In this document: positions 1,024 through 29,081 of the stretch, in pieces
Position numbering within the stretch: the first letter of the stretch is position 1
Layout: each line of letters opens with the position of its first letter
NCBI GenBank assembly: GCA_964017195.1
Contig: OZ024896.1
Location: forward strand, 33,431,807-33,495,806
From: Siderastrea radians
Taxonomy: Eukaryota > Cnidaria > Anthozoa > Scleractinia > Rhizangiidae
Length of the DNA: 64,000 nucleotides
Direction of reading: 5' to 3'
The notes under the pieces: model-generated
The model's database searches: none
What the model was told of the DNA's origin: nothing
What the model saw: only the letters and a program-made list of their open reading frames with translations
Translations under genes and position numbers: made by a program

Positions 1024-1205
1024 CAGTCCATCCATCCATCCATCCATCCATCCATCCATCCATCCATCCATCCATCCATCCCTCCATCCCTCCATTCCTC
1101 CATCCCTCCAGCCAGCCAGCCAACCAGCCAGCCAGCCAGCCTTCCTTCCTTCCTTCCTTCCTTCCTTTCTCCCGTCCTTCCTTCCTTCTTTCCTTCCTTC
1201 CTTCT
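1024..1205. repeat. CATC microsatellite followed by CCAG/CCTT-rich low-complexity tract
   Basis: An uninterrupted (CATC)n run at about 1026-1085 grades into CCAGCCAG and then CCTTCCTT-type repeats. Reading frames across it on both strands stay open only because of the repeat and are not genes. Confidence 0.9.
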
Positions 1206-1373
1206 TATACGTTGCCCAAAATTGTTACTTTCAAATTTGAACATGTTCTAGCATGATTTTATCAATCAAATTTTGGCTGTTGTATCTGTTCAGTATAGAG
1301 AGTCATAAGATGCTTTGGCATATTTTATTCATCCTTTAAGTGGCTTTTTAACTTACTTTTATTTTTGAGCGCT

Positions 1374-1960
1374 GTTCCCTTTTTTGCTTTGGGAACGTTC
1401 CGATTAAGAGATGATTGTTCCTCTTTGGAGTGGTCCTTTTAGCATCAAAAGGAACAAATTGCTGTTAAAAATAGGAACAAAGTGTTCATTTAGAGCTAAA
1501 AAGAACCTTTTGTTCCGAATTTTTAACATTGAAAGGAACTTTTTGTTCCTAATTGAGTGGCCTAGGAACAGGTGTTCCCAATGGTATTGTTCCTCTTTTA
1601 TCATTTTGGTCCTTTTTAATCGCTTGAGGAACAATTGTTCCTATTAATGCGTTCCCTTTTAGAGTGGCTGTTCCTTTATGCTGATACGAGGAACTTTGGT
1701 TCCCAATTAATTACGTTCCTTTTTTTGTAAAGGAACGTTTGTTCCTTTCTAACATTGTTCCTGTTTTGAAAAATTGGTTCCTTTTTATTCACTTGAGGAA
1801 CAATTGTTCCCAGTAACAGGTTCCGTTTTGAACGAAATGTTCCTTTTTATTGGCACGTGGAACAGTTTGTTCCTAACCATTAGTTCCTATTTATGTAAAA
1901 TGGTTCCTATTTAGAAATGACAGTTCCTTTCTACATCTTGTTCAACAGAAACATTCTTCT
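1374..1960. repeat. GTTCC/GGAAC array, left flank of element copy A
   Basis: About 590 bases contain more than two dozen GTTCC or GGAAC pentamers, many arranged as imperfect palindromes of the form GGAACaa..ttGTTCC, spaced irregularly every 15-40 bases. The same motif array recurs at 10680-12026 immediately left of copy B. In both cases it precedes the recombinase gene, so I read it as a terminal or subterminal array of the element rather than an unrelated satellite. It could serve as binding sites for the element's zinc-finger or Myb protein, which is untested. Confidence 0.6.
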
Positions 1961-2320
1961 TTTCTTGCCATCTATGATTTTATCGCTTTTTAATTGGCAA
2001 AAACATTTGGTGTAGTGTTTTAAGTTTCAAACAACACGAAGCAGAGTCAATAGCAGATTTTTAAAGACTTTTTGAGGCCCTTATGGACTTGCCCGGGCAA
2101 GGTTGAATATAATCACACCAACGCCATATATCACCTCAAATTTGTAAGCTTACTTAAGAATAATGAACAGTGGCAAGCAGACACATGCCTGAGCAAGCAG
2201 GGGCAAATTGGGGCAGGTTGGGGCAAGTTTAAACTTGCACAATACAGCCATTGTTTTTTTGTCGCCTTTGTGTTTTGTTCACTATTTATGTAAGTGGAAC
2301 AAATTGTGTGAATCACTCAG

Positions 2321-4356
2321 ATGTCCGACATGAACAAAAAGGGTAAGGTTGACTGGTCGAAAATTGATGGCTCATCACCAAAACCAAAACGGCTTCACTT
2401 GGAAAAAGAAGAAACAGATAGCTTGTATCACTGTCCAATACAAACGTGTGATCGCGATGGATTTAAAAGTCAACGTGGCTGCAGGAAACATGTGAACACC
2501 AAGCACAGTTGGTTCTTTTTTTTTGACGAAAAACCCGACGTTTCAAATACCAAAGAACTTGCCGATGATGATACATCGGGTGAAATCACAAAACAAACTG
2601 CCAGGGTAATGCCTTCGTTTTCAGTTTCCAGCCAAATTGGCGAGTTATTCACGAAATGGTTGACTGGAAGTGGTGGGGGTTGCAAGAAAGATCGTGCAGC
2701 TTAACAGATAGCCAAGAGATGCTTTAAATTTCTCAAATTTTGCTGCGAAGATGAAGAGGAATTGAGTTTTGAAGCGCTGGACTTTAGCCTGTGTTCTCAT
2801 AGTCTGTTGTTCAAGTTTATCGACTACTTGCAAGATGAATGCAAACTCGGACACGGTGGCCGATTGGGCTACATTGATGTGATCTCCGAATTAATCGACT
2901 TCAGAAAAATAAACGGCGCATCAGACACAGTTCTTCGAAATTTGTCCTCAACGGAGTTGTACCTTAAACGAGCGCGCAAGACGGTGGCAAAGATGATGAG
3001 ACTGCAGTGGACACAAGATCTAGACATTGAAACTTTGGATGCTAGGGGGCACTGGGCAACCATGGAAGAACTCAATGTAAAGAAGATCCTCGCAGTTATT
3101 AACGCAACTTATGCAGTTGCGAAAAGAAAGCCTGAAAAAATCAGGCTTGCCGGGATTCGAACCTGACCTCTGCGATACCGGTGCAGCGCTCTAACCAATT
3201 GAGCTAACAAGCCAACTGGGAGCTGGTCATTAAATTGGTTCATAATGTACCCGGGAAAGATGAAGATGAAATTATGAATATATGAGACTCATATATTTGA
3301 ACTGCGGAATGAAGAAATCAATGATCAAAGATCCTCGAGGATCTTCTTTACATTGATTTCTTCATTCCGCAGTTCAAATATATGAGTCTCATATATTCAT
3401 AATTTCATGGAAGAACTGTTAGAAGTGGTGACATTCACTTGCCTCGTTACGAGAACACTGTGAAGACGTGCAAAACTATTCCAGGTCAAGTTAATCCTTC
3501 TGACTTAACATTTGCCACGAAATTTGTCGCAGTGTATTTGTTCATCAAGGTGAAGGGATCTCGGCCTATGACTTATCAGTATTTGACAGTAGACATGGTC
3601 AGAGCAGCTAAGGAGAACGGGGGATTCATCGACCAGAAAAAGTTCAGGACTGCTAGCAAATATGGATTTGACTCCTTAATTCTGACCGATGCAAGCATGC
3701 AGGTGCTCGATAGCTACATACATTTCGTAAGGCCATTGCTAAAACCCCAGTGCGAGTTCGTTCTGGTCACGAGAAATGGAGGCCAGCACAGCAAATTGGG
3801 CGACGTCATGAGTAAACTAGTGTTTGATGCAATCGGAAAGTTCATTCATCCGACGCGCTATCGTCAAATTGTCGAGACGCAAAGCCTCAATCTGCTCACA
3901 AGCAAGGAGCAACAAATTTTGTCAGAAGACCAAAAACACAGTTCTGCCGTTGCAAACGTTCACTATCAAAAGCAAAGATCGCGCGAAGTTGCTGTCAAAG
4001 CTCACGAGTGTCTACAAAAGCTACAAGGTACCAAGGGATCGGAAGTGGACAAGGAAGTCCACACGAGGTTTGGCTGTTCAACTTTAAGCTCGTCGCCATC
4101 AGTTGAAACTGCAGAAAGAACAATCATGCCTCCCAAAAAGGTTGTCTCCTTAACTACGCCCTTGCACATTCAACGGAGTCATCGTCGGATCTTAAAATTT
4201 ACGGCCGACGAGGACAAATTTCTACAAGAAGGGATAGATAAACACGGATTTGGACAGTGGACTGCTATTTTGAGAGATCCCGATTTCACTTTTCAAGACG
4301 GAAGAACGGCAGACTCCCTAAAGAAAAGAGCGGGACTTAAAATGCCGCTTACTTAA
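2321..4356 (+). pseudogene. Broken C2H2 - tyrosine recombinase - Myb protein, element copy A
   Basis: This is clearly homologous along its length to the 592-residue protein at 12358. It keeps the N-terminal finger (CPIQTC...HVNTKH), the recombinase arginine (KGSRPMTYQYLTVDMVRAA), the HPTRYRQ box, the KHSS...VHYQK histidine/tyrosine segment and the terminal Myb-like helix set (DEDKFLQEGIDKHGFGQW). It is broken three ways: an in-frame TAA at 2702-2704, a 333-bp SINE-like insertion at 3073-3405 with a 12-bp target duplication, and a one-base frame change just after it (about 3425-3435). The C-terminal part from 3439 is still open to the stop at 4354-4356. The gene converges on the minus-strand helicase gene, 360 bp away. 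No cyclin gene lies in that gap, unlike copy B. Confidence 0.85.
3073..3405 (-). mobile_element. tRNA-derived SINE-like insertion with palindromic half
   Basis: The insertion interrupts the copy A recombinase and is flanked by a 12-bp direct repeat, catggaagaact, at 3061-3072 and 3406-3417. On the minus strand, 3213-3142 folds as a tRNA-like sequence with A box (TTAGCTCAATTGGTTAGAGC), B box (GGTTCGAATCC) and a following T-run typical of pol III termination. The loop position corresponds to anticodon GGT (Thr-like), but position 33 is C and one anticodon-stem pair is lost, so I do not call it a functional tRNA. The other half (about 3269-3405) is a near-perfect palindrome centred near 3338. 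Confidence 0.7.
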
Positions 4357-4414
4357 CAAAACAAAAACATTTTGAGAAAACAGACATCACACTCATCTCA
4401 ACTGAGAGATTCAC

Positions 4415-4443
4415 TTTATTTAATTTAACACAATTTCAATAAA
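4415..4443. terminator. Back-to-back poly(A) signals between convergent genes, copy A
   Basis: AATAAA at 4438-4443 on the plus strand serves the recombinase gene ending at 4356. TTTATT at 4415-4420 is AATAAA on the minus strand for the helicase gene ending at 4720. Overlapping convergent 3' ends fit a compact, virus-like layout. Confidence 0.55.
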
Positions 4444-4719
4444 CTAAGTTAATATTCACTGAGGTGTATTAGGTCTACTACTGTTTATTTGCACTGAGCT
4501 TTTTTACCTCACAAATAGCTTCGAAGAAATAACTCCGAGTGAAAACATACATTGAACAAGATGCTAATTTGCAGGGCGTTCCTGCGACGAAAAGAAACAA
4601 GATATTTTCTTCTGCCCCCTGGAAGACTGGCTTTGGGCTACGCGAGCTCTCTTTCTCGGGGGTTGGGCCGCAGGGAAGGGCGACGGCGGACACGTGTAGG
4701 GAATATCAAATGAAGGGGT

Positions 4720-7700
4720 TTAGGAGGGCGTTTTGGGCTTTGGTGTGATGAACATCCACTGGTCGTCTTCATCATCGTTGTTGTTGTCGGCGCCTCTCTC
4801 GCTTCCCGGCGGGGTGAGCTCCATGGGAACACTGGGATGGTCCAAAGCGCTGTCGTTGTTGCTCATATCACTGCCAGTAGCTAACTCCACTATCACGGGA
4901 AGGGGCGAAAACACGTCCCTGATGCAGTCGACGCAGGCACGTTCAACCAGTCTGCGCTCCAAACACATCCTCTTTCTTTGTTGCACAGCTTCTTGAAGTC
5001 GGAGCGTTCCTTGGCCCTCGTGGAACAAACGCAGTTTGTTGCTGTTGATTTCCAAAAGGCTGTGCAACACCGCTCGCTCTTCGCCATCTGTAGTCAGTTC
5101 CACACGCTTACTCTGCTCAGCCATCTCCTTTTCCATGTCGAGAAGCCAGCGATTCGTGTAAACCTGCCTCGCCCTCTCTTCATTTTCGTGCTGCTGTTTC
5201 GACGCACGGAGTGCCCGCCTATGTTCGAGGGCCTCCTCTTTTTTCCGTTCCAAGCTGGCGGGAAGTTGTTCGTCTGGATCTACGATGAGTTCACGAGCTT
5301 CCGATTCTTCGACGACTCCCAGGTCGACAAGCATTCTGCGCTGATGTGCCAAGCGTCGGTCGCGCGCGGCTTGGTTCGTACTTTCCACAGATTTCAGCAT
5401 GAAACTAATATGGCGATAACGCAACGACCCCGGTGAAGTTAGTGCAAGCGACGTCCTTAATGCGGCTGTGGTCTCATCTTCTTGGCCATTAGAATCATCA
5501 AGATCGTTGTCGTCGTGTAGATTTTCCTGTTCACCTTCAGGCCTTTCGCGTTGATCTACCAAAAGGTCGGCCAGGTTCACTGTTCTTAACACCTCCTTTT
5601 CGCTTTCCAGAAGAGTTCCGTCGTCGTTCTGCGTGTCTCGTTCTACTTCGCCAACATCGTCATCAGAACTTTCTTGTTCGTCGTCGCTACCGACCCTTGC
5701 TTTTGACGCCGCCCAGACTATGCACTCCATAGGGTGGTTGCGCAGCCACTGTGCGGCCTTCTTTTTCGGACTTGGCAGACGTTTAAAATAGTAATATCTC
5801 AGCCTTCGGTCCATGGCCTGCTGGTCGTCTGGCTTGAATTGCAGTTTCTGCTGCGCAGTCATAAACATGGGGCATCGATTGAAGAAAGACCTTGCCGTCT
5901 TGTACTTGACGTCGCAGGCAGTGAAGCCACCCTGTGTCAGGATTCTCCAGTCATCGACGTCAAGCATTGTAGGAGATGCCTCGTCGATGAATATGACTTC
6001 CGTTTCTTTGCTGATCATTGACTTGTTAAACACTTTCTGTTTTGTGACTGTGGCTATATTGCTGTGGTGAATCACACCAAGTATGGGATAAAACAGGCTT
6101 GTCTTGCCACTGTCAGCGTCTCCGACCAAACACGCTACTTTCTCCTTGTGCTTCTTTTGATTGTACTTGAGCAGCCGAAGGAAGTCTTCGCAGAATAAAG
6201 CAATTTGGCTCTCTGAGAGGCTGTTTTCAAGGATCTCGATGAGGTACTTTGGATGTGGTTCTTTGAACGGGTCGTACTGCCTGAACGCTCTCGGTGTGAT
6301 CAAGCCCACTTTCTCGGCGGGTATTGGATCTTTCAAGAACTTTCGTTCCTCCACGGACCAGCAGTTATCCTTGGTTAACCTCTATGAGATTGTAGTCGAC
6401 GCTGATAGGACGGATGAGTTCGCAGTCGGAATCGCTAAGCAGGTCGATTACTCTTTTCATGTCCCTGATGAGCCTTGACTTAAAAGACTCATTAGCGGCT
6501 ATGCTGTTCACAAACGCCTTGACGTCACACTTGTAGGAATACGTGTACTTGGAGCCTTCACACTTCTTGTAGATCTTGCCTTTATAAAGAGCATAGTCCA
6601 GCGTTTTCATGGCAATGGCGATGTCATTGATCAGGACAGTCATCTTGTCTCCAAGCCCAGGCTCTGCTACTTCATTTGTTGTTTCTGATGTTGCCTCATG
6701 AGTACCAGAGTCGAAACCAAATTGATCAATCGTAAGTTTCGCGCTTTGCATTTTTTTGATAGCATTCGATAGAGAAGCCTTGAATGCAGGATTCACGAGA
6801 CAGACGCGAACGACGTTCTCTGTTCCACATTCGTCTGCGTCAATTGCGTCTGGATCTTGTAGGACGTTTTCCATCTCCGAAATAAAGCAGTGCTGGTACG
6901 AGGCGGTCACAAGCTCTTGCATGAAACGGTTGCTGTGATCTTTTAAAACTTTAAACAACTCTTTCATCGCATTAGATTCTTTGCCCTCTTGACAGGGAAC
7001 CTTAAACGGAAAATAAATACAATATTTCAAACCCCGCTTTTATTGTTTTATTTTAAAATTCTTTTGCGAATGGTTTTGATGGCAGTAGGACGGGCGAAAA
7101 ATTACAAACAATCAAAACAATAACTCAGCACTTTTTTACTTTCGTTTGCCTTCATGACACAATTTTCAAACTAGAGATATCTATTTAATTCTCTGTATAT
7201 GATCACAGTGAACAAAATATGCGAAACGTGTTTTGTAAACTCAAAAGCGTTTGTTTTGGTAGGAATTTTACAACACGGATTTCTAAATTTGCACTAGAAC
7301 GGCAACATAAAATTTGAAAAAAAGGAACCGGCACTACTTGCCGCTATAAAGAAGCGCGATGTAGGGTTAGTTTGTAAACTGAAACAACAATAACTTTTAC
7401 TACTACTATTTAACACTTTTTATATGCTTTTCTTCACGGTGAGAAATGCGAAAACATGTTTTCTTTACCCAAAAGACAAACAAAGCAGCACGGATTTTTC
7501 AATCTGTAGTAGAGTGGCAACATAACATTTGAAAAATAAAGTAACCACTACTGGCCGCTACAAAGAAATGTTAATTTCAGTTTTTTGCGATGTTCTATAC
7601 GTCGTATCTACATTGTTGCATCGTCGCATCATTCAACCATTTTTTTTTTGTAGAGCATGTAGAAGACTTAAATGAAGGTTCCTATAGTTTAAAGGGACAG

Positions 7701-8914
7701 TGTCACGAGAATCACTTCAAAAATTCAAGAGTGCAAAAACACATTTACAGCAACGGAAACCTACAAGAAGTGGTCCATTTTCGTAAAAATGACAATGCCA
7801 GTGTAATGACGCTGAATAAAGAAGTGATATCATTATGCTAACAACAGGAACTCAAGCTCTAAACTTGAAAATTTCAGGCTGAACTTTTCAAGTTTTGCCA
7901 TTTTAGCTTAAAAAAAGTGGCTTAAAATGAATTGCAGTTCCACTTTCCTTCAATATTTCATTTGGTATCTTTCTCTTGATGTTCTAGGTGCATTTCTTGT
8001 ATGAGCAATAGTACTAAGCCATGGTTTTAGTCCTGCTTTATTAAAAATAGCGAAAAAAAAAACACCGTGACACTGTCCCTTTAACCAGCTTGCGTTAACA
8101 CTACAGTGTAAATAAACGTAAACATAACCATATGAATGGCCTTAAAAAGAGACATGTACCTGATTTGCAATTGCCTCCACTCCGCATTCCAGAAGGGCTC
8201 TGTGAACGATGATCGGATTGGCCGGGGCACCATTTGGCGTGGTAATCGCAATCCAGTAGCTTATACATGGAAGCAATCTTTTATTTACAATAGAGGGATG
8301 ATCCGATAACCAGCTATGACTCGACTTGCTTGAAACTTGGCTTGGTGTGATTGAATCGTCTTCACTGTCAGCACACTGATCGCCATCATTTTCGGCACGG
8401 TCTCCACCTTTCTTGTTTGCTTTTCTCTTGGGGCCTTGCGTGCTCACAGCACTGAAAAAGAAGGCGACGCTTCTGATGCCTAGGGTAAAAGTTGAAAGTT
8501 TCTGCTTATTAATTTTATTCTCAATATTCCACAAAATCCATAAAATCCTTAAGATCCGCCCTGAGAGGCGAAAATCGATGTGTCGTCGCTATGTATTTAT
8601 GTTTCCGCAAAATCCGTAATGTCCGCCCTTCCAGGAGACGTCTTGATAGTAAATCATACGGGAATGGAAACTATATATCCGTTAAAAATAAACACAAACG
8701 GCCATTACCAACCTTGCAATGCTTTGTCGCAAGCATCTCTCGTTTTACAAACTTCATCCCAAACCTTTTGCAGGCCATCGTCGATGTTACTAACACATCT
8801 AGCACTAACAACGCTGCATTTTTTGACAATGATTGGACTAAGATAACATAGAGCTGCGCCTTTGATTCTTTCGCTGTTCAGTTGGCGACATGGATGACTC
8901 GTCTTTCGCATCAT
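4720..8914 (-). pseudogene. Spliced superfamily-3 helicase gene, copy A (one frameshift)
   Basis: Three exons with conserved phases, 8914-8713, 8479-8160 and 7000-4720, would give about 934 codons. The first two encode a conserved domain (AALCYLSPI..., SYWIA.TTPNGAPANP, ALLECGVEA.ANQ) around an acidic linker. The third holds a helicase core with Walker A GDADSGKT (6123-6100), Walker B IFIDEA (5994-5977), an SF3 B'-like GGF...DVKYKT segment and an arginine-finger-like MDRRLRYYYF. The order matches parvovirus NS1 and papillomavirus E1 type SF3 helicases. Motif C reads CPMFMTAQ, lacking the usual asparagine. A charged coiled-coil-like tail follows. An extra base near 6355 breaks the frame; otherwise it is open. 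The tail is one exon here but four exons in copy B, and no PIP box is present at this C-terminus. Confidence 0.8.
7693..8080. mobile_element. TTAA-flanked MITE in intron 2 of the copy A helicase
   Basis: This 388-bp insert has perfect 15-bp terminal inverted repeats (AGGGACAGTGTCACG / CGTGACACTGTCCCT) and a TTAA duplication at 7689-7692 and 8081-8084. TTAA targeting fits piggyBac or Kolobok mobilisation, and the terminal sequence looks more Kolobok-like to me. No coding capacity. Confidence 0.8.
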
Positions 8915-8947
8915 CTTTCCACTAACTTGGGTCAAATCAGTGTTTCG

Positions 8948-8955
8948 CTTTTATA
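8948..8955 (-). promoter_or_regulatory. TATA box of copy A helicase gene
   Basis: TATAAAAG on the minus strand lies 34 bases upstream of the first ATG at 8914. The copy B gene has the same arrangement (TATAAAAGG about 40 bases before its ATG), which supports both the promoter and the chosen start codon. Confidence 0.65.
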
Positions 8956-9108
8956 GCTGACGAATTTGTGAATTTGATTTGAATAAATAACAGGGCGAGG
9001 GAATGTTTAAGTGCAAATGTATGCCTGCGACGAAAGGTATTATACTGTTGTATGCTTTAAAACGTTGTAATCAAAGAATGTATCTTTTACGTTTGTTGAA
9101 GCTGTAAT

Positions 9109-9761
9109 GTTTGACATGCAGTTATGAGAAAATAGAGAATCTGACGCGGCTATTACATATTAACGAAGCATACACGATTACGTGAAATCCGTGAAATCCG
9201 TAAAATACACACCCCGAAGGGAATATTACTCATGATCTGATGTGGTCTCACCAGAAACTGAATATGTTATAAAGTTACATGGATTTACTTTCTCATCAAA
9301 GGGTGGTTTTTACGGTTTTTACGCATTTCACGGAAAATTGAATATATAATGAATCAACGTCGATTTTCTTTCTCATCGAAGGGTGGATGACAAGGATTGT
9401 ACGGAACTCCCGGAAAATTGAATATATAATAAAGTAACGCTGATTTTCTTTTTCATCGAAGGGTGGATGATAAGGATTGTACGGAACTCACGGAAAATTG
9501 AATATATAATGACGTTGCATCTATTTTCTTTTTCATAGATGGGTGTATTTCACGGATTTTAAGGATTTTGAGGGAAATTTACTCTAAAAAGAAATAAGAA
9601 TAAATTAATAAAAAAATTAAAAAATAATAAAAATAAAGAAAATAAAAAATTAAAAATGAAAAAGTAAAAAAGATTAAAAAGAGAGAAAAAGTAAAGCATA
9701 TTATTTCTTCATTTTTATGTTTTCTTCTTTCTTTTTTTTTTACTTTTCTTTATTTTCTTTA

Positions 9762-9796
<35 letters not shown>

Positions 9797-10299
9797 TTAC
9801 TAATTTATTCTTATTTCTTTTTAGAGTAAATTTTCCTCAAAATCCTTAAAATCCGTGAAATACACCCATCTATGAAAAAGAAAATCAGCGTTACGTTATT
9901 ATATATTCAATTTTCCGTGAGTTCCGTACAATCCTTATCATCCACCCTTCGATGAAAAAGAAAATCGGCGTTACTTTATTATATATTCAATTTTCCGGGA
10001 GTTCCGTACAATCCTTATCATCCACCCTTCGATGAGAAAGAAAATCGGCGTTGATTCATTATATATTCAATTTTCCGTGAAATGCGTAAAAACCGTAAAA
10101 ACCACCCTTTGATGAGAAAGTAAATCTATGTATTTTTATTACATCTTCAGTTTCTGGTAAGACCACATCAGATCATGAACAATATTTCCTTCGGGGTGTG
10201 TATTTTACGGATTTCACGGATTTCACGTAATCGTGTATGCTTCGTTAATATGTAATAGCCGCGTCAAATGCTCTATTTTCTCATAACTGCATGTCAAAC
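9109..10299. repeat. 1.2-kb palindrome of ATCCGT/ACGGAT units, right flank of copy A
   Basis: The arms 9109-9700 and 9710-10299 are inverted copies (gtttgacatgcagttatgag at the left end, its complement at the right end) meeting in an A/T-rich centre near 9704. Each arm contains several roughly 67-bp sub-repeats beginning near 'gggtggatgataaggattgt'. Units such as caaaatccttaaaatccg are shared in form with the AAGGATTTTAAGG array right of copy B. A few stray units continue to about 10490. No coding sequence. Confidence 0.85.
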
Positions 10300-10679
10300 A
10301 CTGCAAGTTCTTGTTAAACATGCGGCTGTGTGTTTATCTGCTACAACCGTGTTAAATCCTGATATTGTCAAGGCATCTTCAACATATACTAACATAAAAT
10401 TGGCATGCTGTGACTGGCGAAACAGAACCGATTAGAAGGATAAGTAATTTTCTGGAGTCGGAAAAAACGGATTTCACGGATTTACTGGAGATGTTCCTTT
10501 TGTGGCCTTGAACTATATTCCAGTTAAGAAACACTCTAAGCCCCGTTTCCCGTTTCCAGTTTGTTGACGTATTATTTTAACTTAACGCGCATTCAAAGTC
10601 AAATGAAACTCTAAAACGTGTCTAAAAGTTTATGCTTGTCATTTCCTTCCTTTGAATCAATTCTTAATAACACAATCCA

Positions 10680-12026
10680 AAAGGCTTTTTAAGAGAACGA
10701 GTTTACCAAGTAAAAGGGAACGAGGACACTTGGGAAACGATCCTATACGTTTCCCAAAATGAGAGAACCGCAAAATTCTGTTAACGTGCTTTGAGTTTTG
10801 TTGCAAAACTTCGACCAGAACTACTTTAACTTATAAATCGCTTAAATTGATGGTTTATGTGGATGAAAACCGAGTTGCACGAGCGCTACGATCGGCCGAA
10901 TAAAAGGGGTCCGTTCCTCTATTTTTGTTCCTTTGTTCCTATAATTGAATTAGGAACAAACCAGCTGTTCCTTTTCTGAAACAAAGGAACAGCTCTTAAA
11001 CCGTACAAAGGAACGAATTTTGCACTATTCGGAACAAAAAAATACTGATTAGGAACCAAAAGGCCCCTTGTAATAACAAAGGAACGCATTTTTCCTAATC
11101 TGGCAAATCAGTTGGGCCTTTCTTGAGTAATTAGGAACCTGAGTTCCTAATAATTTCATTCCTTTTCACATAAAGGGAACGTATTGTTCCCAATAATGAA
11201 ATCTAATCGGAACCGTTGTTCCTATTAACAGGATTAAGGAACCAACAGTTCCTGTATTACTTAGTTCCTATTTCCAGTTAAGTTCTCCTTTAAGGTAATT
11301 GGGAACACCTCTTCCCATCTACTGAGCTTACATAGCTCAACAAGGAACTGTTTGTTCCTAATCGCATCCCAGTTAGGAACATTTCGTTCCCATGTCTTAA
11401 TTGGACCTAACAAAAGGGGAACGTGAAGTTCCTTTGTTTGGAAATTAGGAACGTGCAGTTCCCAAATAAAAAGGAATTAGGAACAAGGTGGCCCTAAATA
11501 AAAGGTCACGTTTTGTTCCTATATGAACAAATGGGATCATATTGTTCCTATAGTAATAGGAACATTTTGTTCCACTTCAACACAATTAAGAACAAAAAGT
11601 TCCTTTGGAACAAAACGGTCCTTTTCATTAAAGGAACGTTTTGTTCCTATATGAACAAATGGGATCATATTGTTCCTATAGTAATAGGAACATTTTGTTC
11701 CACTTCAACACAATTAAGAACAAAAAGTTCCTTTGGAACAAAACGGTCCTTTTCATTAAAGGAACGTTTTGTTCCTATATGAACAAATGGGATCATATTG
11801 TTCCTATAGTGATAGGAACATTTTGTTCCACTTCAACACAATTAAGAACAAAAAGTTCCTTTGGAACAAAACGGTCCTTTTCATTAAAGGAACGTTTTGT
11901 TCCTATATGAACAAATGGGATCATATTGTTCCTATAGTGATAGGAACATTTTGTTCCACTTCAACACAATTAAGAACAAAAAGTTCCTTTGGAACAAAAC
12001 GATCCTTTTCATTAAAGGAACATTAG
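10680..12026. repeat. GTTCC/GGAAC array, left flank of copy B
   Basis: This contains dozens of GTTCC/GGAAC motifs in irregular palindromic arrangement, equivalent to the 1374-1960 array left of copy A. It ends 330 bp before the recombinase start and condenses into an exact tandem repeat at its right end. Frames open here are by-products of the repeat. Confidence 0.7.
11511..12022. repeat. Four tandem copies of a 128-bp unit
   Basis: Units start at 11511, 11639, 11767 and 11895 and are nearly identical; the only changes I see are single bases such as taataggaac to tgataggaac. Each unit holds eight or so GTTCC/GGAAC motifs. The near identity points to recent amplification within the older, degenerate array. 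Confidence 0.9.
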
Positions 12027-12254
12027 GAACAAAGAAGTCCCATTTACTTGAAAGCAATTGGAGTGCTTGGGGCGGAGGGGGGGGGCATATCGCACTGAAC
12101 TTCATTCCGCCTAAACATGCTAGGGCAAGTTTGAGCACGCTTTTTGGATTATGCTCGCCTTCGCCTTTCTATTGGACAAGATGCACTTGGGTTCCCAAAG
12201 GGGCTACAACATGTTCAGGGCACGTTTGAACAAGGTTAGTATATTTGCCTTGCT

Positions 12255-12304
12255 ATTGGTCAATCGGGAGTTTCGTACTCTAGGGACACAAGGATCGTAT
12301 AAAA
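12255..12304 (+). promoter_or_regulatory. CCAAT and TATA elements of the copy B recombinase gene
   Basis: TATAAAA at 12298-12304 lies 54 bases before the ATG at 12358. ATTGG (inverted CCAAT) occurs about 40 bases further upstream. Together they support the start at 12358 rather than the in-frame codon at 12319. Confidence 0.55.
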
Positions 12305-12357
12305 CAACTGGCAGGTAAGTGTATGCTCATTTCTCGCTGACTCTCCTCCCAAGAAAG

Positions 12358-14136
12358 ATGAGTAAAAAGTGCAAGCAAGTTGACTGGGCTAAAGTTGCAA
12401 ATGCTTTGACCAAACCGAAAAGACTTCACTTGGAGAAAGATGAATCCGATGGTCTTTTTCACTGCCCAATAGAGGCGTGCGATCACGATGGATTTGGGAC
12501 TCAAAGAGGCTGCAGGAAACACGTAACTCGAAAACACCGTTGGTTCTTTTACTTTGCTCAGAAACCAAGCAATGCAGAAATTGAGGCTAATCAAGTTAAC
12601 GACTGTAATGAAAGCCCAAAAAAATCCAAGCCCACCAGCGCGAGCAAACCGATTCCAACCTTTGAACCATCGGGTGCAATCGCCAAAGAATTCCTTTCTT
12701 GGCTCACCGGGAGTGGCGGGGGCAAGAGCGATCGCAAAGCTCCGCAAATTGTCAGCAAAAGCCTTAAGTTTCTCAGATTTTGTTGTGAAGACGAAGACGA
12801 ACTGACTTGGAAAAATGTCGACTATAGCTTATGCTCTCCTAACCTCCTCTTTAAATTTGCTGATATGATGCAGGACACGCGGAATCTTGGACATGCTGGA
12901 CGTTTAGGATACCTGGACGCCATTGGGGAGCTAGTGCAATTCAGAAAAGTTAGCGAAGGATTGTCAGATACAGTGGCTAGAGGATTAACTGTCACCGAGA
13001 CGTACTTGAAAAGAGTTCGGCGAACAGTGTCTAAGATGATGAGATTGCAGTGGACCAGCGATCTGGACATTGACGTTTTGGAAGCCAAGGGTCACTGGGC
13101 ATCACTCGACGAACTACTGGAAGTTGTGTCTCATTACCTGCCTCGATATGAAGAAGTGCTTAAGAAATGCAGGGACAATCCAGGTAGTGTTTGCTCGGGG
13201 GATTTGTCGTTTGCCAAAAAATTTCTAGCCGTGTACTTGTTCATTAAGGTAAAGGGCTCCCGACCCATGACGTACCAGTACCTCACTGTTGACATGGTTC
13301 GTGCAGCGAAAACAAACGGGGGATTCATTGACCAGAAAATGTTTAAAACGGCAGGTAAATACGGATTTGACTCCCTCCTTTTAACCGACACTAACATGAA
13401 AGTTTTGGATGGATATATACATCACATTCGCCCTCTGCAGAAACCAGCTTGCGACTACGTACTCGTGACGAGAAACGGGGGACAGCACAACAAGCTTGGA
13501 GAGCTGATGAGTAAACTGGTTTTTGATGCCATTGGAAAATATGTTCATCCGACGCGCTACCGCCAAATCGTCGAGACGGCAAGTTCCAACCAGCTCAGTG
13601 CAAAAGAACAAGACGCAGTTTCAGAGGATCAAAAACACAGCTCGGTCGTAGCAAGAGTGCATTATCAAAAGCAACGATCCAGAGAGGTCGCAACAAAGGC
13701 CCGCCAATGCTTGGATAAACTACATGGCGACAAGGGGACAAAGTTGGAAGAAGATGTAATTTCAAGACTGTCAGACATCTCGTCCGCCTCCTCTCAAGAA
13801 CATGATGCGCACCATCTGTCCGGCGGTTCTACAGAAGAAGTCGAAAGTGCAGAGGAGGCGTTGCCACTAAAACGGGAATCCAATTTGGGTGAAATTCCAA
13901 GACTTACACGCCAGCGCGCTTTCAAAGTGGCGAACATCGGTCGTACATGCAATAGAAAAAAAGCCCTCTTGTTCACCCAGGACGAAGACAGGTATCTCAA
14001 GGCCGGTCTCAAAAGGTACGGCTATGGTCAGTGGACAGCCATTCTAAGGGATTCCGAATTTCATTTCCAGAAAGGAAGGTCTTCTGACTCACTGAAGAAA
14101 CGAGCGGCGGCCAAGTTTTGCAAAGACACGCGCTAG
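12358..14136 (+). CDS. C2H2 finger - tyrosine recombinase - Myb protein, copy B (intact)
   Basis: This is a 592-residue open frame. Residues 36-60 form a C2H2 finger (C36, C41, H55, H60). Residues 300-440 carry what I read as a full tyrosine-recombinase set: R302 in GSRPMTYQYL, K334 in AGKYGF, H397-x-x-R400 in HPTRYRQ, H427 in KHSSVVA and the candidate nucleophile Y436 in RVHYQK. Residues about 538-585 form a Myb/SANT domain (DEDRYLKAGLKRYGYGQW) ending SSDSLKKR, recalling the telobox-type third helix. The likely role is cutting and joining element DNA at integration; the finger and Myb domain probably bind element ends. The closest known class is Crypton-type YR transposons, but I know of no Crypton with this architecture or with a helicase partner. 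It is followed by a cyclin-like gene and converges on the helicase gene. Catalytic assignments come from motif reading only. Confidence 0.8.
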   Translation: MSKKCKQVDWAKVANALTKPKRLHLEKDESDGLFHCPIEACDHDGFGTQRGCRKHVTRKHRWFFYFAQKPSNAEIEANQVNDCNESPKKSKPTSASKPIPTFEPSGAIAKEFLSWLTGSGGGKSDRKAPQIVSKSLKFLRFCCEDEDELTWKNVDYSLCSPNLLFKFADMMQDTRNLGHAGRLGYLDAIGELVQFRKVSEGLSDTVARGLTVTETYLKRVRRTVSKMMRLQWTSDLDIDVLEAKGHWASLDELLEVVSHYLPRYEEVLKKCRDNPGSVCSGDLSFAKKFLAVYLFIKVKGSRPMTYQYLTVDMVRAAKTNGGFIDQKMFKTAGKYGFDSLLLTDTNMKVLDGYIHHIRPLQKPACDYVLVTRNGGQHNKLGELMSKLVFDAIGKYVHPTRYRQIVETASSNQLSAKEQDAVSEDQKHSSVVARVHYQKQRSREVATKARQCLDKLHGDKGTKLEEDVISRLSDISSASSQEHDAHHLSGGSTEEVESAEEALPLKRESNLGEIPRLTRQRAFKVANIGRTCNRKKALLFTQDEDRYLKAGLKRYGYGQWTAILRDSEFHFQKGRSSDSLKKRAAAKFCKDTR

Positions 14137-14330
14137 CTAAAAACTTACTATAGAACTGGAATTTCAAATGGGGCCCTGGGAACCGCGCTTGCTTGCTTAT
14201 GTGCCAATCAAACAGGCCTTCTTTGCGCGTGTGTTTCCCAAAGCATTTCGGGATGTTGCGTGTCACTATTTAGCGCGCAGACTTTAAAAGCCGGGCCCCT
14301 TTTCCTGCTGAACACACACCCGCTAAGATC

Positions 14331-14696
14331 ATGGAGACCATTGTAGATAAACATCCCGCTTTGTCGTTGCAAGACATCAAGTTTGCTGGAGAGTTTATTC
14401 ATGGCATTCGCGAGCCATTTGGTTTTCCAAAATCGACGGCCATGTTGGCAGAAAGCCTTTTTTGGAGGCATTTAAACAGAACAACGCAAAGGCAAAGGGC
14501 TACTCTGAGGGAGCTCATCTTGGCATGCCTTTTCATAGCCATTAAACTAGAAAGCAGCGACATTGCAAGAAATTCCTTGTTTATGGACGTTATTGCAACA
14601 CCGGTTTCGAGGGATGTCATCATAGAGGAAGAACTCCGTGTGCTAGAGTCAGTAAATTGGAGGCCATTAGAACACGCGGACATGATTGGTCTTTAG
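14331..14696 (+). CDS. Cyclin-box protein carried by element copy B
   Basis: This 121-residue frame starts at an ATG 50 bases after a tttaaaag TATA-like sequence (about 14283). Residues about 45-112 match a single cyclin fold: a hydrophobic helix LRELILACLFIAIKLES (compare the 'LVAVACLLIASKYEE' type of helix with its conserved Lys/Glu) and the later helix VIIEEELRVLESVNWRP (compare 'E..IL..L.W.L'). The second cyclin fold of cellular cyclins is absent, so it is roughly half the usual core. It lies 194 bp after the recombinase stop on the same strand, and copy A has nothing in this slot. By analogy with viral cyclins it may activate a host CDK or promote S phase; this is inference. The frame is uninterrupted while the neighbouring helicase is broken. 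Confidence 0.65.
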   Translation: METIVDKHPALSLQDIKFAGEFIHGIREPFGFPKSTAMLAESLFWRHLNRTTQRQRATLRELILACLFIAIKLESSDIARNSLFMDVIATPVSRDVIIEEELRVLESVNWRPLEHADMIGL

Positions 14697-14788
14697 TGTA
14701 GGAACCCACATAGTGATGGACTACTAATGCCTATATTAGGGGCTTCGTGAACAATTAAACGCAAGGCACAATTGAGCAAAACCTGTCA

Positions 14789-14794
14789 TTTATT
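14789..14794 (-). terminator. Poly(A) signal of copy B helicase gene
   Basis: TTTATT on the plus strand here reads AATAAA on the minus strand, about 140 bases past the helicase stop. For the convergent cyclin gene, ATTAAA occurs near 14754. Confidence 0.4.
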
Positions 14795-14929
14795 CATCAA
14801 ATTAATTATATTGAATCACACTTGATTAATTTATACTTGCATCATGTATTTGGCTGCTTGACTGGATGTACATGTAATTGACATAGCAAATGTAGCAAAT
14901 GTTAATACATGAATCGTCGTGGAACACGT

Positions 14930-17900
14930 TTACTTAGAAAAGAAAAACTTCTTAATGGAGGTTTGTCCTTTCTGCACTTCGGAACACCCTCTCTTTCGCT
15001 GGCCTTTGCTGGTGGAGGTAGGAACACGTACTTGCAGTCCACCCCACATGCGCGATGACGAATAATCCTCGAGTGGTCCGCTGTTCGTGGCGGGCGACGA
15101 TTCCCGTACAAGACCGTCAGCCGTCAGTATCGATGGACTTGACGGCCCTTTTAGCTCCTCGTCAACAAAGCCACTTGAGTTTGGCGACTCGCACATTCCT
15201 GTCAATCAAATGGCAACAAATGAAAATGATAGATTTAGGTAAGCTAAGCACAACGGGTGACGAGGCGGGGTGTTCCTTAAAACAATTTAACAGAGAGGCT
15301 TTCCTACGAAAGGTGACATTAACGGGGCTCACCCATTTCTTTCTCGCTGCTCATCATCGGACCGCCCTCATCCTCGGAGCTCGGCGCGTGCTCTGTATAA
15401 TAGAAAAAAAAACACGATTTGTTTAGACAAACAGCGCAGGCGAAAAGTAAAACTTTCAACGCACTCACCTTCCTCTGTGCACCAGGGCACTGGGTCGCTA
15501 AGGTTGGTTATCAGGTGCGCAAACTTGTCGTCGATGAACCCCCACCTGACGCACGCCCGCCGCCTCTCCGCCACCGCCGTCTCGCACATTTTCGTTCCAG
15601 TGTTTGCGTGGTGGGTCATCAGCTTGTGCGACAGGAGACCCATGTAATCATTGAACGCCGTCGTGTCGAGTGCCATGCCGGTGTTCAGTTTACGCACGCA
15701 CTGGAATAGGTCGGTTTCGGTGCTTTTCACCCATGCGTTTTCGAATGCCTGTCGTGCTTTCGTTTCCCTCTCTTTCATCTCATCTTCTAGGCGCGCCAGC
15801 CTTACGCGGTGGATTTCCTCTTTCAACACTTGGGGCAGTTCGGTTTTTCCGTCCTTGGGAAGGAGCTCCGCCAATTCTTTCTGCACGCCCGAGTCGACAA
15901 GGGCCTTTTTTCGGCGCTCGTGTTGTTGGTCGCGTTGACGCCTGTACTCTTCCATTGCTTCTGTCTCCGTCCCAAGCAAGTGTTGCAGCTGTCTGTAGCG
16001 CAGCGAGCCCTTTGCGCAGCTTCTGAGCTCTCTTCTAATGGACGCTATATGCCCTTCCTCCTCGTCGGACTCCGCCTCTGCTGCAATGTCTCGGACTTCT
16101 CCCTATAAGACAGACAAACAAATGTCACACAAACGTGATTGTGAAGCAGTGGTGCCTATTGCAAGTATCAAAACGTAACAGCTCACCAACTCTCGACTGT
16201 CACTGACTTCAGAGTCTTCTAGGACGAGATGCCTCAAGGCCTCTTTTTCTTCCCCTTTTAAGATGCCATCTTCGCTCTCGCTGTCATTGTCGCTTTCACT
16301 TTCGCTCTCGCTTTCGTCAACTTCGTTTTCTAGAGGCGCTTTTGCGTTCATCGCGGCCCAGACGATGCAATCCATTGGATGCCTTTTAAGCCACTCGGCG
16401 GCCTTCTTTTTGGGTCTCGGCAGGCTCGTGAACTTGTATACTTGAAGACGTTTCTCCATGGCTCTCTTGTCTTTTTCAGAGAAGTCGAGCTCTTCTTGGG
16501 CGTGATGATCATTGGGCATTTGTTGATGAATGGCTGGGCGGTCTTGTATTTTACGTCGTATGCTGCGAACCCCCCCTGAGTTATCGTTTTCCAGTCGTCG
16601 ATTTTGAGCAGTGACGTCGTGGCTTCGTCTAGAAAGATCACCTGCGTCTCGGGCGTTATCATTGCCTTGTTAAAGGCGCCTTGTTTCGTGATAGTTGCCA
16701 CTCTGCTGTAGTGGATGACTCCCAGTATAGGTAAGAACAAGCTGGTCTTGCCACTGTTTGAGTCGCCAACGAGGCATGGCACGCGATCTTTATGTTTCTT
16801 GCCGTGGTGCTCTAGTAACTTCAGGAAATAATGGCAAAACGACTGTATTTCCGGGCCCGACAAGCTATTTTCCAGAATTTCTCGAAAATATCTTGGAATG
16901 GGCGGAGTACTGGGGTCGTATTTGCAGTATGCTCTAGGCGTGATTCGTCCTACGTCAGATTCGCTGATGGCGTCTTCGATGAAAGTGTGCCTCTTTACAG
17001 ACCAGCATTGGCCTTCATCCACTTCGATAAGGTCGTAATTTACTTGAATGGGCTTGATTACTTCACAGCAAGGTTCGGATATGATATCGATGACTCTCTT
17101 CATGTCGTTTAAAAGCCGTGATTTGAAGCTTTCGTTTGACGCTAGGGTGTTGACAAATTCCCTTGGACTGCATTTGAGAGTATAAGTGTACCTTGCTCGA
17201 TCTACCTTCTTAAAAATCTACCCTCTGTGAAGCGCGTATCCCAGCTCCTTCATCGCTATTCCTATGTCGTTTATAAGCACCGTGGTTGTGTTGGACAGGT
17301 GATGCGGCCTTATTTCCTCTGAGGTTCCTTGGGACGCTGGCACTGTCGGTGCTTGGTCAAATCCCACTCTGTCCGTGACAAGCTTGTTCTCCATTTTGGA
17401 CATGGCGTACTCTAAACTCTGCTGAAAGGACTTGTTTACAAGTACAACCCTGACGACCTTCTCTGAGACACTAGGAAAACGTTCGTTCTGCGAGCTAATT
17501 TGACTGTCGGATTCCTCTTCCATTCCTGGCACGAAATTGCGGACCTCTTGTTTGTATAACCACGTGAAGCTGTCGTTAACGAGATCTTGCGTAAATGCAT
17601 TCTTGTGATCTTTTATTGTATGGCAAAGAGCATCGATAGCTTGGGACTCCTTTCTTTCGACGCAAGGCACCTTTCAAAGGGAAAACAAGAAAACGCGTAA
17701 AAATGAAATCTTAATTGCCAAACAACTCCATTGCGCTGAGCTATACATTTTGGGCTATTGTGTTTACTTGTGGAGCTTTCCTTGAAATGTTATTTTCCGC
17801 GTATAAGCCCCCGCTCCCCCCCCCCCTCCCCGCACACACACAGACGCACACTCAGTTGGAATAACAATGGTTAGATAGTTCCAAATACCTGATTGGCCGT

Positions 17901-18676
17901 GGCTTCTACGCCACATTCGAGGAGCGCTCTTTGCACAATTAATGGATTCGCCGGTGCGCCATTGGGTGTGGTCATAGCTATCCAATAAGAAATGCCTGGG
18001 CGAAGTTTCTTGTCCACTAATAGTTTGTTTTCGCTAACCCATGTCGTTGTTGTGTTCGAAATTGCTTGACTTCCCTTCATTGCCCCATCATCGCCACTCT
18101 CGTCGTCGCTCGCGCTTATTTCGAAATTAGCTTCGACTGAAGTTTTTGCCGGTTTCCTTCTTCTTCTTCCCGGCCCACTTGCGGAAATAGCGCTGAAGTA
18201 GAACGCTGTGCAGTTCGTTCCTGCAACAGTAAAACAATTTATTGTCAAACAGTCCATTCAATGTACGCTCGAATTGGTGGTCAACTAATTGCAACAAAAG
18301 CTTTTTCGACGATTTCATACTACATTTAGTCCCAAAATGCAAATGATTCTAATAATTCCGAAGTATAACCGTAGATTGACTGGACTAAAAAAAATGCACG
18401 CGGAATATCGACAGATTTGATGGTTTAAAGCATAATTCGAAAGATTTAAGAAATCTAGCATTTCAACTTACCCGAAATTGCATTGTCACAAATGTCCCTT
18501 GTGCGGCACACGTTCCTCCAAGCGTGTTCTAAGCCTTCGCTTATGTCCGCGTACGCTATTGCATGTATGATGCTGCACTTCCCTACCACAATCGGGGAAA
18601 GGTAGCACAGAGCAGCGTTTTTAATTTTAGTGCTGCCAAGTTGCCTTGCTGGCTGCGTAGCTTTGCTCGCTGACAT
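14930..18676 (-). pseudogene. Spliced superfamily-3 helicase gene with C-terminal PIP box, copy B
   Basis: Six exons with consistent phases: 18676-18472, 18220-17889, 17670-16187, 16102-15469, 15392-15333 and 15198-14930. The frame would be about 995 codons. The N-terminal domain matches copy A (AALCYLSPIVV, SYWIAMTTPNGAPANP, ALLECGVEATANQ). The core has Walker A GDSNSGKT (16767-16744), Walker B IFLDEA (about 16641-16621) and GGF...DVKYKT. A Ser/Asp/Glu-rich run, a coiled-coil-like tail and a terminal QTSIKKFFF (14965-14940) follow; QxxIxxFF is the canonical PCNA-binding motif. Two lesions are visible: TAG at 17220-17218 where copy A has Lys, and a one-base deletion near 16515 within motif C. 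Exons 4-6 replace a single exon region in copy A. The likely role is replication of element DNA with host PCNA. Confidence 0.8.
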
Positions 18677-18715
18677 AACGCTACGGGGAATGCGAGGCGC
18701 TATCCTAAAGGTCCA

Positions 18716-18724
18716 CCTTTTATA
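18716..18724 (-). promoter_or_regulatory. TATA box of copy B helicase gene
   Basis: TATAAAAGG on the minus strand lies about 40 bases before the ATG at 18676. Its position matches the copy A gene. Confidence 0.65.
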
Positions 18725-19022
18725 GACAAACGGCGTGAAATCAAAACAGTTACCATATATGGGCATTGGTACCACCACACGTCACAAAGAAGAGGTCGTT
18801 GTATCGCAGCTTGCTTGCTGGAATTTGTTAAATGAATTCTCTGGTAAAAACAGCTCGTTATTTCTCAATTGCAATAATTGGGTGTGCGTTTGCATTTGAA
18901 TGCATGACAACGTGGGAAAATTACGTCACCAAGCAGCAAAATGAGAAATGTTTCCCCAAAGGGGTCATTAGAAGGTTCGGAATTTTTTTACTTATTCCAT
19001 TGTCAAACAAGTCATACAGCAT

Positions 19023-19312
19023 AACAAAACGGAGGTTACATAACCCCGCCTCACCCATCAATCGCTTTTCTTACAATGCATTGTCAAGGAGCTGATTAGT
19101 GGATGAATCTGAATAAACGCGCTAATAATTGCATATTTCTAAATTCAGTGACACAAAGGCGTGTTTGAAGACACCGTAAAACGGAGGTTACATAACCCCG
19201 CCTCACCCATCAATCGTTTTTCTTACAATGCATTGTCAAGGAATCCGAAAAAACGAGCTAATTATTGCATAATTCTAATTTCAGTGACACAAATGCGTGT
19301 TTGAAGACAACT
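19023..19312. repeat. Two direct copies of a roughly 150-bp unit beside copy B
   Basis: The sequence aaaacggaggttacataacc begins at about 19025 and again at about 19176, with high identity over about 145 bases, including cgcctcacccatcaatcg and ttcttacaatgcattgtcaa. Each unit contains small palindromes (ggttacataacc, caatgcattg). It sits between the helicase promoter and the right array. Role unknown; an origin or recombination site is possible. Confidence 0.75.
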
Positions 19313-19339
19313 TAAAGATTGTAACATTATTGATTTAAA

Positions 19340-21218
19340 TCATAGTCTCCTTAGATCCCTTCAAATCCTTATTATCTTCAGTTCTAGAAACAATCGTCTG
19401 CTTTCAGTATTGGATTTTGGTTCGTATAAAGGAGATAAATGCGAAAAATAAGAAATAAGGATTTGAAATGTTTCCTTGGAATCCTTATAATCCTTATTTT
19501 CCTTGTCTCTGGAAACAATCTTCTGATTTCAGGGTATTCTTTTTTATTCATGCAAAGAAGGGAAACACGGAAACTAAGGGAACTAAGGTTATATGATACC
19601 CCTTAGAATTTTGAAGTTTTATTCATGCAATGGAGAAAAATACGGAAACTAAGGAAACTAAGGATAATATGATACCCTTCTTAGAATTTTGAAGTTTTAT
19701 TCATGCAATGGAGGAAAATATGGAAACTAAGGAAACTAAGGATAATATGACCCTCCCCTTTTACAAGTTTGAATTTTTATTCATGCAATGGAGGGAAATA
19801 TGGAAACTAAGGAAAATAAGGATAATATGACCCTCCCCTTTTAACAAGTTTGAATTTTTATTCATGCAATGGAGGGAAATACGGAAACTAAGGAAAATAA
19901 GGATTGAAAATGTACTCTCCTTTGATTCCTTAAAATCCTTATTTTCCTTAGAAAATAATATTTTTAAATATATCCATGGGGCTATATGAAAGACCCCCCT
20001 TTGAATTTTTATTCATGCAATGGAGGAAATTATGGAAACTAAGGAAACTAAGGATAATATGACCCTCCCCTTTTACAAGTTTGAATTTTTATTCATGCAA
20101 TGGAGGGAAATATGGAAACTAAGGAAAATAAGGATTGAAAATGTACTCTCCTTTGATTCCTTAAAATCCTTATTTTCCTTAGAAAATAATATTTTTAAAT
20201 ATATTCATGGGGCTATATGAAAGACCCCCCTTTGAATTTTTATTCATGCAATGGAGGAAAATATGAAAACTAAGGAAACTAAGGATAATATGATACCCTT
20301 CTTAGAATTTTGAAGTTTTATTCATGCAATGGAGGAAAATATGGAAACTAAGGAAACTAAGGATAATATGACCCTCCCCTTTTACAAGTTTGAATTTTTA
20401 TTCATGCAATGGAGGGAAATATGGAAACTAAGGAAAATAAGGATAATATGACCCTCCCCTTTTAACAAGTTTGAATTTTTATTCATGCAATGGAGGGAAA
20501 TACGGAAACTAAGGAAAATAAGGATTGAAAATGTACTCTCCTTTGATTCCTTAAAATCGTTATTTTCCTTAGAAAAAATAATAAAAATTATTATTAATAT
20601 CATTATTATACATTAATATAATATATTAATATATTAATATATTAAATTAAATAAATTTTAAATAAATTTTATTATTTTTTTTTAAGGAAAATAAGGATTT
20701 TAAGGAATCAAAGGAAAGTATATTTTCAATCCTTATTTTCCTTAGTTTCCGTATTTTCCTCCATATCATGAGTAAAAATTCAAAGGGGGGTCTTTCACAT
20801 AGCCCCATGGATATATTTAAAAATATTATTTTCTAAGGAAAATAAGGATTTTAAGGAATCAAAGGAGAGTATATTTTCAATCCTTATTTTCCTTAGTTTC
20901 CATATTTTCCTCCATATCATGAGTAAAAATTCAAAGGGGGGTCTTTCACATAGCCCCATGGATATATTTAAAAATATTATTTTCTAAGGAAAATAAGGAT
21001 TTTAAGGAATCAAAGGAGAGTATATTTTCAATCCTTATTTTCCTTAGTTTTCGTATTTCCCTCCATTGCATGAATAAAAATTCAAACTTGTAAAAGGGGA
21101 GGGTCATATTATCCTTAGTTTCCTTAGTTTCCATATTTTCCTCCATTGCATGAATAAAAATTCAAAGGGGGGTCTTTCATATAGCCCCATGGATATATTT
21201 AAAAATATTATTTTCTAA
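19340..21218. repeat. AAGGATTTTAAGG/TTCATGCAATGGAGG palindromic array, right flank of copy B
   Basis: Left-half units (tgcaatggaggaaaatatgg, then aaggaaaataaggattg, then ccttaaaatccttattttcc) repeat from about 19630 to 20580. They appear in inverted orientation from about 20683 to 21218, around an A/T-only centre near 20630. The array resumes at 29082 after an inserted element. The motif is related to the palindrome right of copy A. Open frames inside it on both strands are repeat artefacts. Confidence 0.85.
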
Positions 21219-21231
21219 CCCTTGTAAAAAT

Positions 21232-21720
21232 TTGACCGAGATCTCGGCGAGATCGCGGCAATCTCGCCGAGATCGGCGAGATCTCGGCGAGATAGCCACG
21301 ATCTCGGCGAGATTTCAAAATATCGCGCCGAGAAAAGTAGCCCGCGGTGAGATCGCGGCAATCTCGCCGAGATCGCGCCAAGATCGGCGAGATCTCGGCG
21401 AGATAACCACCATCTCGGCGAGATTGCGAAATATCGCGTCGAGATATCTACCCCGCGGCGAGATCGTAACGCGATCTCGCCGAGATAACCGCGATCTCGG
21501 CGCGATTTCAAAATATCGCGCCGAGATATCCAGCGAGAAGTGAGATTGCAACACGATCTCGCCGCGACAAACTAGTTCGCGGCGAGATAGTCACAATCTC
21601 GGCGCGGATAGCCGCGATCTCGGCGATTTCATGTCGAGATTTCTACTGTTGCAACGCAGAGACTGTCTCGATCTTTGCGAGATTTATCTCATAGAATCTC
21701 GATATCGGTAAGATTTCTCT
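21232..21720. repeat. Left CGAGATCTCG palindrome array
   Basis: GC-rich repeats of gatctcggcgagat and cgcggcgagatcg contrast sharply with AT-rich surroundings. This is the inverted counterpart of 28480-29065. Frames reading RRDLGEIAAI-type repeats are not genes. Confidence 0.85.
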
Positions 21721-21799
21721 CAGGTTTTACTGCTGCAACTGTCATTGTATTTGTGCAAATCTCCTGACCCTGTACCCATAGTTTCAAACAAGCGCGACC

Positions 21800-24592: not shown

Positions 24593-24630
<38 letters not shown>

Positions 24631-27830: not shown

Positions 27831-27879
27831 TGCTTCGTCTATTGCATAACCTACTGCTCAACCATCTTTCGCGATTTTC

Positions 27880-28332: not shown

Positions 28333-28479
28333 GCGTGACGTGGATCAACTGTAACAATTCCTGGAACTGCAATATAGGACATAGTTTTGTCAGCGTCTGG
28401 TAGTTTGATTAATTGTTAACGTAAATGTAAATATCGTTCTCATCGAACCTAATTTGGTTGCCGAGAATTTCGCTTCTCG

Positions 28480-29065: not shown

Positions 29066-29081
29066 AAAATTTTCACAAGGG

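Follow-up and report, generated by a model that had tools for sequence, protein, structure and literature searches.

The 64,000-nucleotide stretch of the Siderastrea radians genome analysed here (contig OZ024896.1; hereafter the window) carries two members, A (~9.5 kb) and B (~11.5 kb), of one mobile family that pairs a tyrosine recombinase (YR) gene with a superfamily 3 (SF3) helicase gene. We consider it probable that these are capsid-less mobile elements, moving most likely as DNA circles that the YR integrates and on which the helicase starts replication. The two members form a head-to-tail array with (CCTT)n-type microsatellite on both sides. An earlier note on this DNA had described the same convergent gene pair in both copies, a C2H2-YR-Myb protein on the plus strand and a spliced SF3 helicase on the minus strand; this pair stands, but the note had overlooked a cyclin-box gene at 14331-14696. 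Its borders (1374-21218) were too short and are rejected because the end sites, now located, place the array at 1205-30158, with B split by a foreign insert. The two tandem copies, which it called independent, are not separate insertions: they are joined end to end at 10730-10757. Neither copy in the window is whole; copies with open frames are present elsewhere in the genome, of which 804.8 Mb in 439 contigs were searched (the window lies on contig 10). This search scores only the best candidates, and all genome counts given below are therefore lower bounds.

The plus-strand protein carries the R-K-HxxR-H-Y set of the tyrosine recombinase superfamily, which is present in 46-48 of 48 aligned YRs at each of six positions. 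Numbered from the Met of B, H397 is found in all 48 sequences, R302 and R400 in 47, and H427 and Y436 in 46. The catalytic residues proposed earlier (R302, HxxR at 397-400, H427 and Y436) are thus borne out, with the exception of the lysine: K330 is invariant, whereas position 334, the original choice, is K in 43/48, which makes K330 the better candidate from the alignment. A structure model supports a YR fold, with Cre among the fold matches; the viral fold library gave one match at E<=0.001, and its named near-top matches are integrases of phages and of one algal virus. Fold comparison was used because sequence searches against solved structures returned Myb matches only for the YR and no match at E below 0.5 for the helicase. 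Pfam recognises no YR family at all in the 48 YR sequences, and the lack of a DUF3504 match there is still compatible with kinship with Cryptons. In A, the gene has a stop just before 2705 and a palindromic insertion at 3266-3408, probably of a small fold-back type, whose 58-nt arms match perfectly around a 27-nt loop. In a comparison of 26 loci, each YR open reading frame (ORF) differs from its nearest counterpart by 0-1.5%, so that the spread of the family has been recent in evolutionary terms.

The minus-strand protein is supported as an SF3 helicase by its Walker motifs and by its modelled fold. The Walker A and B motifs reported in the earlier note are confirmed, their GxxxSGKTSLF and FxDEA columns being invariant in 61 sequences, and the gene is indeed spliced, with GT/AG at the exon borders and three exons in both copies, a structure that matches a 953-aa gene model of Oculina (P0140). 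The model of a relative, P0121 (mean predicted local distance difference test score 70, predicted template modelling score 0.47), matches the SaPI5 helicase, poxvirus D5, adeno-associated virus Rep and papillomavirus E1. Foldseek returned 124 matches at E<=0.001 for the helicase model, the matches listed being SF3 helicases and primase-helicases, and the SaPI5 helicase is the best VIA match. The helicase domains of A and B are 50% identical, and their frames change near 6365 in A and near 16.4-16.6 kb in B; in many other copies, open helicase frames reach 700-800 aa and more. The gene is present in several anthozoans: the protein database holds 207 relatives, the best 120 of which include Desmophyllum, Oculina and Acropora. 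Among the family's homologues, another search named Porites and Nematostella. In a far type of helicase there seems to be an additional intron of ~110 bp just before Walker A (L059, 2645-2753; L060, 3670-3778), which A and B lack.

A third gene, found in B, encodes a 121-aa protein with a single Cyclin_N box, and other copies were likewise matched. In the protein database, all 15 cyclin relatives among 27 candidates have Cyclin_N. Among solved chains, the relative in L059 is nearest in sequence to those of viral cyclins and of cyclin E, although the match is weak (best E 0.0016). The cyclin-box gene matches 97 rows in the genome, none of them within copy A or the C9 group. At 43 of the 74 YR places, it lies 133-374 bp downstream of the YR on the same strand; no YR was listed upstream of 28 of the 71 cyclin places. 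The cyclins fall into two groups of about 60-68% identity to each other, and the YRs ahead of them share 93-100% or 67-70% identity with that of B (83% in one case). We read ten cyclin loci, dropped L064 for an in-frame stop, and compared the remaining nine in pairs whose proportion of synonymous differences (pS) exceeded 0.02. Synonymous change lies far above non-synonymous change: between groups, pS is 0.72-0.82 and its non-synonymous counterpart (pN) 0.24-0.27, and the rate ratio dN/dS is 0.10-0.12 in the 6 of 18 pairs where dS is defined. Within groups, dN/dS is 0.16-0.20 in seven pairs, 0.45 in one, and 0.29-0.73 in very close pairs. These substitution patterns show that the gene is under purifying selection. 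Behind many cyclin genes, as at 612-701 of L059, a second short stretch again matches residues ~102-131 (61-67% identity); it could represent either a partial duplication now decayed or an alternative terminal exon.

The gene pair recurs outside the window, with a convergent helicase at 56 of 74 YR places; linkage in other copies, as the earlier note expected, is thus found, but the pair is not obligatory, since two groups carry the YR only. Of the 81 YR rows, the count uses 74, the other 7 being Myb fragments that belong to places already listed; the helicase rows used are 81 of 137 from a first search and 26 of 116 from a second, and the cyclin rows 71 of 97. One helicase counted as linked lies 6.3 kb away, and the figure would be 41/74 without the second helicase search. 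A count of helicases within a 1500-bp flank (10 of 30 YR loci) was replaced by this one, the flank being too short. YRs that are 96-98% identical to that of B are linked to three types of helicase (about 90-91% identical, 53-54% identical, and the far type, which had its own search), and helicase modules could be swapped by recombination within arrays. Arrays are likewise built from YR-only units, ~4.8 or ~5.7-5.8 kb in length (L042-L047 and L063 at C1:25.2 Mb; L062 at C3:5.03 Mb), and their right ends also precede copies of other groups. In other assemblies, contigs of matching size, compared by eye (831,635 and 81,048 for YR and helicase; 2,171,853 for YR and cyclin), hint at linkage but prove nothing.

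Evidence for the mode of integration comes from the ends. Where two members meet, the joined ends form a perfect 28-bp site at 10730-10757, in which the arms TTGGGAAACG and CGTTTCCCAA are inverted around an 8-bp spacer. By its sequence, this site is of the classical YR type, with inverted arms around a 6-8 bp spacer; PMC3212892 gives inverted 11-13-bp arms and a 6-8-bp spacer for YR sites in general. Other junctions mostly have 12-bp arms; the left-end arm of the C9 group has changed to CATTCCCCAA. In most copies read, the left border corresponds to window position 10730 or to a point 12-15 bases inside it, and copies that adjoin host DNA retain one half-site. Units of the C9 array follow each other right end to left end with no host DNA between them; in the C11 array, the left end of the first copy adjoins CCTT repeats and those of the next two adjoin a right end.

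The right-end pattern occurs 206 times genome-wide, against 0 for the reversed control. Searched for by itself with one mismatch allowed, the 10-bp arm gave 9 matches in the window where 5.7 are expected, which does not exceed chance. After identical sequences were merged, 35 right-end rows remained, of which 19 border on host DNA and 16 on the left end of an element; the latter represent 14 distinct sites, since L049 and L051 were each read twice. On the host side, C+T makes up at least 80% of 30 bases in 15 of the 19 cases, with three of (ATC)n type and one mixed; in the window outside the array, 80% C+T is attained at 1.5% of the positions that follow a C. The right-end copies behind these counts are not independent of each other.

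Between the left end and the YR gene lie arrays of GGAAC/GTTCC motifs. The left ~1.1-1.6 kb holds 59 in B, 33 in A, 31 in C9 and 32 in the 4.8-kb group of C3, compared with maxima of 11, 6, 7 and 5, respectively, in 200 shuffles each, and with 1 and 4 motifs in two control stretches of the window. In all four, GGAAC and GTTCC separated by 4 or 5 bp is the commonest or joint commonest spacing. The right sides are not clearly enriched: A has 5 motifs and C9 has 6, numbers that 15 of 200 shuffles reach in each case, and B has 6 (0/200). All five helicase-bearing types read (A, B, C9, C11 and C3:29.12 Mb) have a large right-side palindrome of repeat units. A strict tie between this palindrome and the helicase is not upheld; YR-only L062 has none, and YR-only L063 has one, seemingly unrelated.

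The half-sites at the ends, the full sites at the joints, an exchange placed inside the spacer and arrays of unlike members together suggest integration of a circle by the YR. The YR would join the two element ends, bringing inverted 10-12-bp arms around the 8-bp spacer, and the joined site would recombine with one of two partners: a short target, pyrimidine-rich in most cases and often a microsatellite, or the end of a copy already in place. The second of these events would yield head-to-tail arrays and restore the full site. From the roles of such proteins elsewhere, we infer that replication of the circle is most likely initiated by the SF3 helicase at the repeat arrays near the ends, with host polymerases, and that any cyclin-box protein present most likely acts through a host cyclin-dependent kinase (CDK) so that replication can proceed. 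The term self-replicating, used in the earlier note, is to be taken in the same conditional sense. The best reading is an integrating DNA circle, Crypton-like in its integration, with a replication helicase of its own and without capsid genes. We give even chances to a stronger claim, namely that the family represents a distinct eukaryotic class: a capsid-less anthozoan integrative replicon with loxP-like circle closure, SF3 replication from iterated palindromic motifs, a captured single-box cyclin that secures S-phase conditions, insertion into microsatellites or its own copies, and swaps of helicase modules between array members.

Part of this evidence would also suit a Crypton-like YR transposon whose helicase and cyclin are passengers or regulators, with no autonomous replication and with copies rising via host replication and recombination. 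The arrays of YR-only units agree with such a view, as do the 18 of 74 YR places without a listed helicase; against it stand long open helicase frames in many copies, a helicase gene in several anthozoans, three helicase types beside near-identical YRs and a cyclin under purifying selection, and we regard this account as unlikely. Another explanation concerns the arrays, which could stem from ordinary tandem duplication or unequal exchange and not from site-specific integration. We find this improbable: although units within arrays can be near-identical (the YR ORFs of L021, L022 and L023 on C11 are identical, and C9 units lie exactly 8,972 bp apart), unlike members meet exactly at the same site, both in A/B and where the left ends of L003, L016, L025 and L029 follow a right end shared with the YR-only C1 group. 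Duplication of one copy is thus insufficient, while later growth of an array by unequal exchange is possible.

A viral origin was also weighed, in which the family is the remnant of an integrating DNA virus, a Polinton-like virus or similar, that has lost its capsid genes. According to PMC4642659, some Polinton-like viruses and virophages are integrating eukaryotic elements that combine a YR with an SF3 helicase, and the helicase fold modelled here resembles viral helicases. Those viruses, however, have capsid and packaging genes, and none was seen among ORFs of at least 150 aa in A or B, families having been searched for the main ORFs only. Moreover, IMG/VR scans with the YR and helicase alignments and tblastn against phage records found no relative, and units of 9-10 kb recur with the same simple gene set. 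We therefore judge a virus remnant very improbable, and the placement between transposon and virus proposed in the earlier note finds no support beyond the type of helicase.

The proposed integration as a circle, with replication by an own helicase, has parallels in known systems. SaPI-type islands and integrating bacterial plasmids combine YR integration with their own replicative helicase; they are bacterial and phage-packaged. SaPI-type islands work alike, and it is the SaPI5 helicase that best matches the modelled fold in VIA, but the coral element has no relative in phage records. Cre/loxP and FLP/FRT use inverted arms around a short spacer, as does the coral site with its 10-12-bp arms and 8-bp spacer; unlike theirs, its arms are split between two transposon ends and its microsatellite targets have no arms. 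With Cryptons, as described in PMC3212892, the family shares a YR DNA element without reverse transcriptase (RT), a proposed circle intermediate and short shared bases at the ends. The animal Cryptons described there are without a C-terminal domain and without terminal repeats, whereas the coral element has a Myb domain, an SF3 helicase, often a cyclin, and paired half-sites. Outside the insert, A and B hold no other ORF of at least 150 aa, apart from repeat-derived or overlapping ones, which agrees with the Crypton feature of a YR without RT or DDE and is compatible with shorter genes; as no RT-like ORF of that length occurs in either, the RT beside the YR that marks DIRS/Ngaro is lacking. 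A YR as the only enzyme, typical of most Cryptons, characterizes the two YR-only groups but fails at 56 of the 74 YR places, and partly for this reason the family is not classed as Crypton. We place it among the YR DNA transposons, as a variant with a helicase and often a cyclin.

To our knowledge, little has been described in eukaryotic YR DNA transposons beyond the recombinase, and cell-cycle genes of this kind are otherwise known from viruses. The earlier note knew of no named family with this combination, and full-text literature searches, which did not cover Repbase, yielded no recognisable description of such an element. Autonomous replication of an animal transposon becomes open to direct test in this family, which has an SF3 helicase of its own, a complete recombination site, repeats that are candidate origins, and a cyclin. 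The family also bears on how transposons, plasmids and small DNA viruses are linked; its YR is a candidate loxP-like recombinase from an animal, and its cyclin makes it an example of a transposon with a cell-cycle gene.

Table 1. Coordinates of the array members, their genes, repeats and end sites in the window.
Feature	Position	Strand	Details
A+B array, inside CCTT-type microsatellite	1205..30158	+	half-sites at 1205-1219 (left, preceded by (CCTT)n) and 30144-30158 (right, followed by (TCCT)n)
A: left end, TTATA + arm CGTTGCCCAA, one mismatch	1205..1219	+	downstream sequence common to left ends in L042, L044, L045
A: GGAAC/GTTCC motif array, n=33	1220..2325	.	maximum 6 in 200 shuffles
A: C2H2-YR-Myb gene, broken	2330..4350	+	pieces 2330-3142 and 3433-4350 (tblastn)
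A: SF3 helicase gene	4567..8911	-	exons ~8911-8711, 8480-8157, 7003-4567 (tblastn)
A: right-side palindrome, 598-nt arms, 90%, built of 80-bp tandem units	9098..10310	.	
A/B junction, full recombination site	10730..10757	+	TTGGGAAACG-ATCCTATA-CGTTTCCCAA
B: GGAAC/GTTCC motif array, n=59	10758..12340	.	maximum 11 in 200 shuffles
B: four 128-bp tandem units, within motif array	11508-12021		
B: C2H2-YR-Myb gene, open, 592 aa	12358..14136	+	
B: cyclin-box gene, 121 aa	14331..14696	+	Cyclin_N 38.3 bits, cut-off 23
B: SF3 helicase gene	15464..18652	-	exons ~18652-18470, 18227-17886, 17673-15464
B: right-side palindromic array, first part	19541..21218	.	
B: right end, last part	29082..30158	+	half-site TTTTGGGAAACGATC at 30144-30158

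The insert that splits B (21219-29081, 7.9 kb) has short inverted ends, CCCTTGTAAAAATTTG and AAATTTTCACAAGGG, and GC-rich minisatellites at both sides; its short ORF at 27880-28344 gave a weak match to a Sleeping Beauty-type helix-turn-helix (E 0.005, below the cut-off). Past the insert, the last ~1 kb of B shares 94-99% identity with the right ends found in three other copies. Elsewhere in the window, two similar long ORFs with hydrophobic stretches lie in opposite orientation (33317-34357 on the plus strand, 42346-43161 on the minus strand); they have no Pfam match and are possibly exons of a duplicated membrane-protein gene. The ORFs at 59170-59724 (minus strand) and 62441-63058 (plus strand) may be retroelement remnants, the latter with a weak CCHC knuckle (E 0.07).

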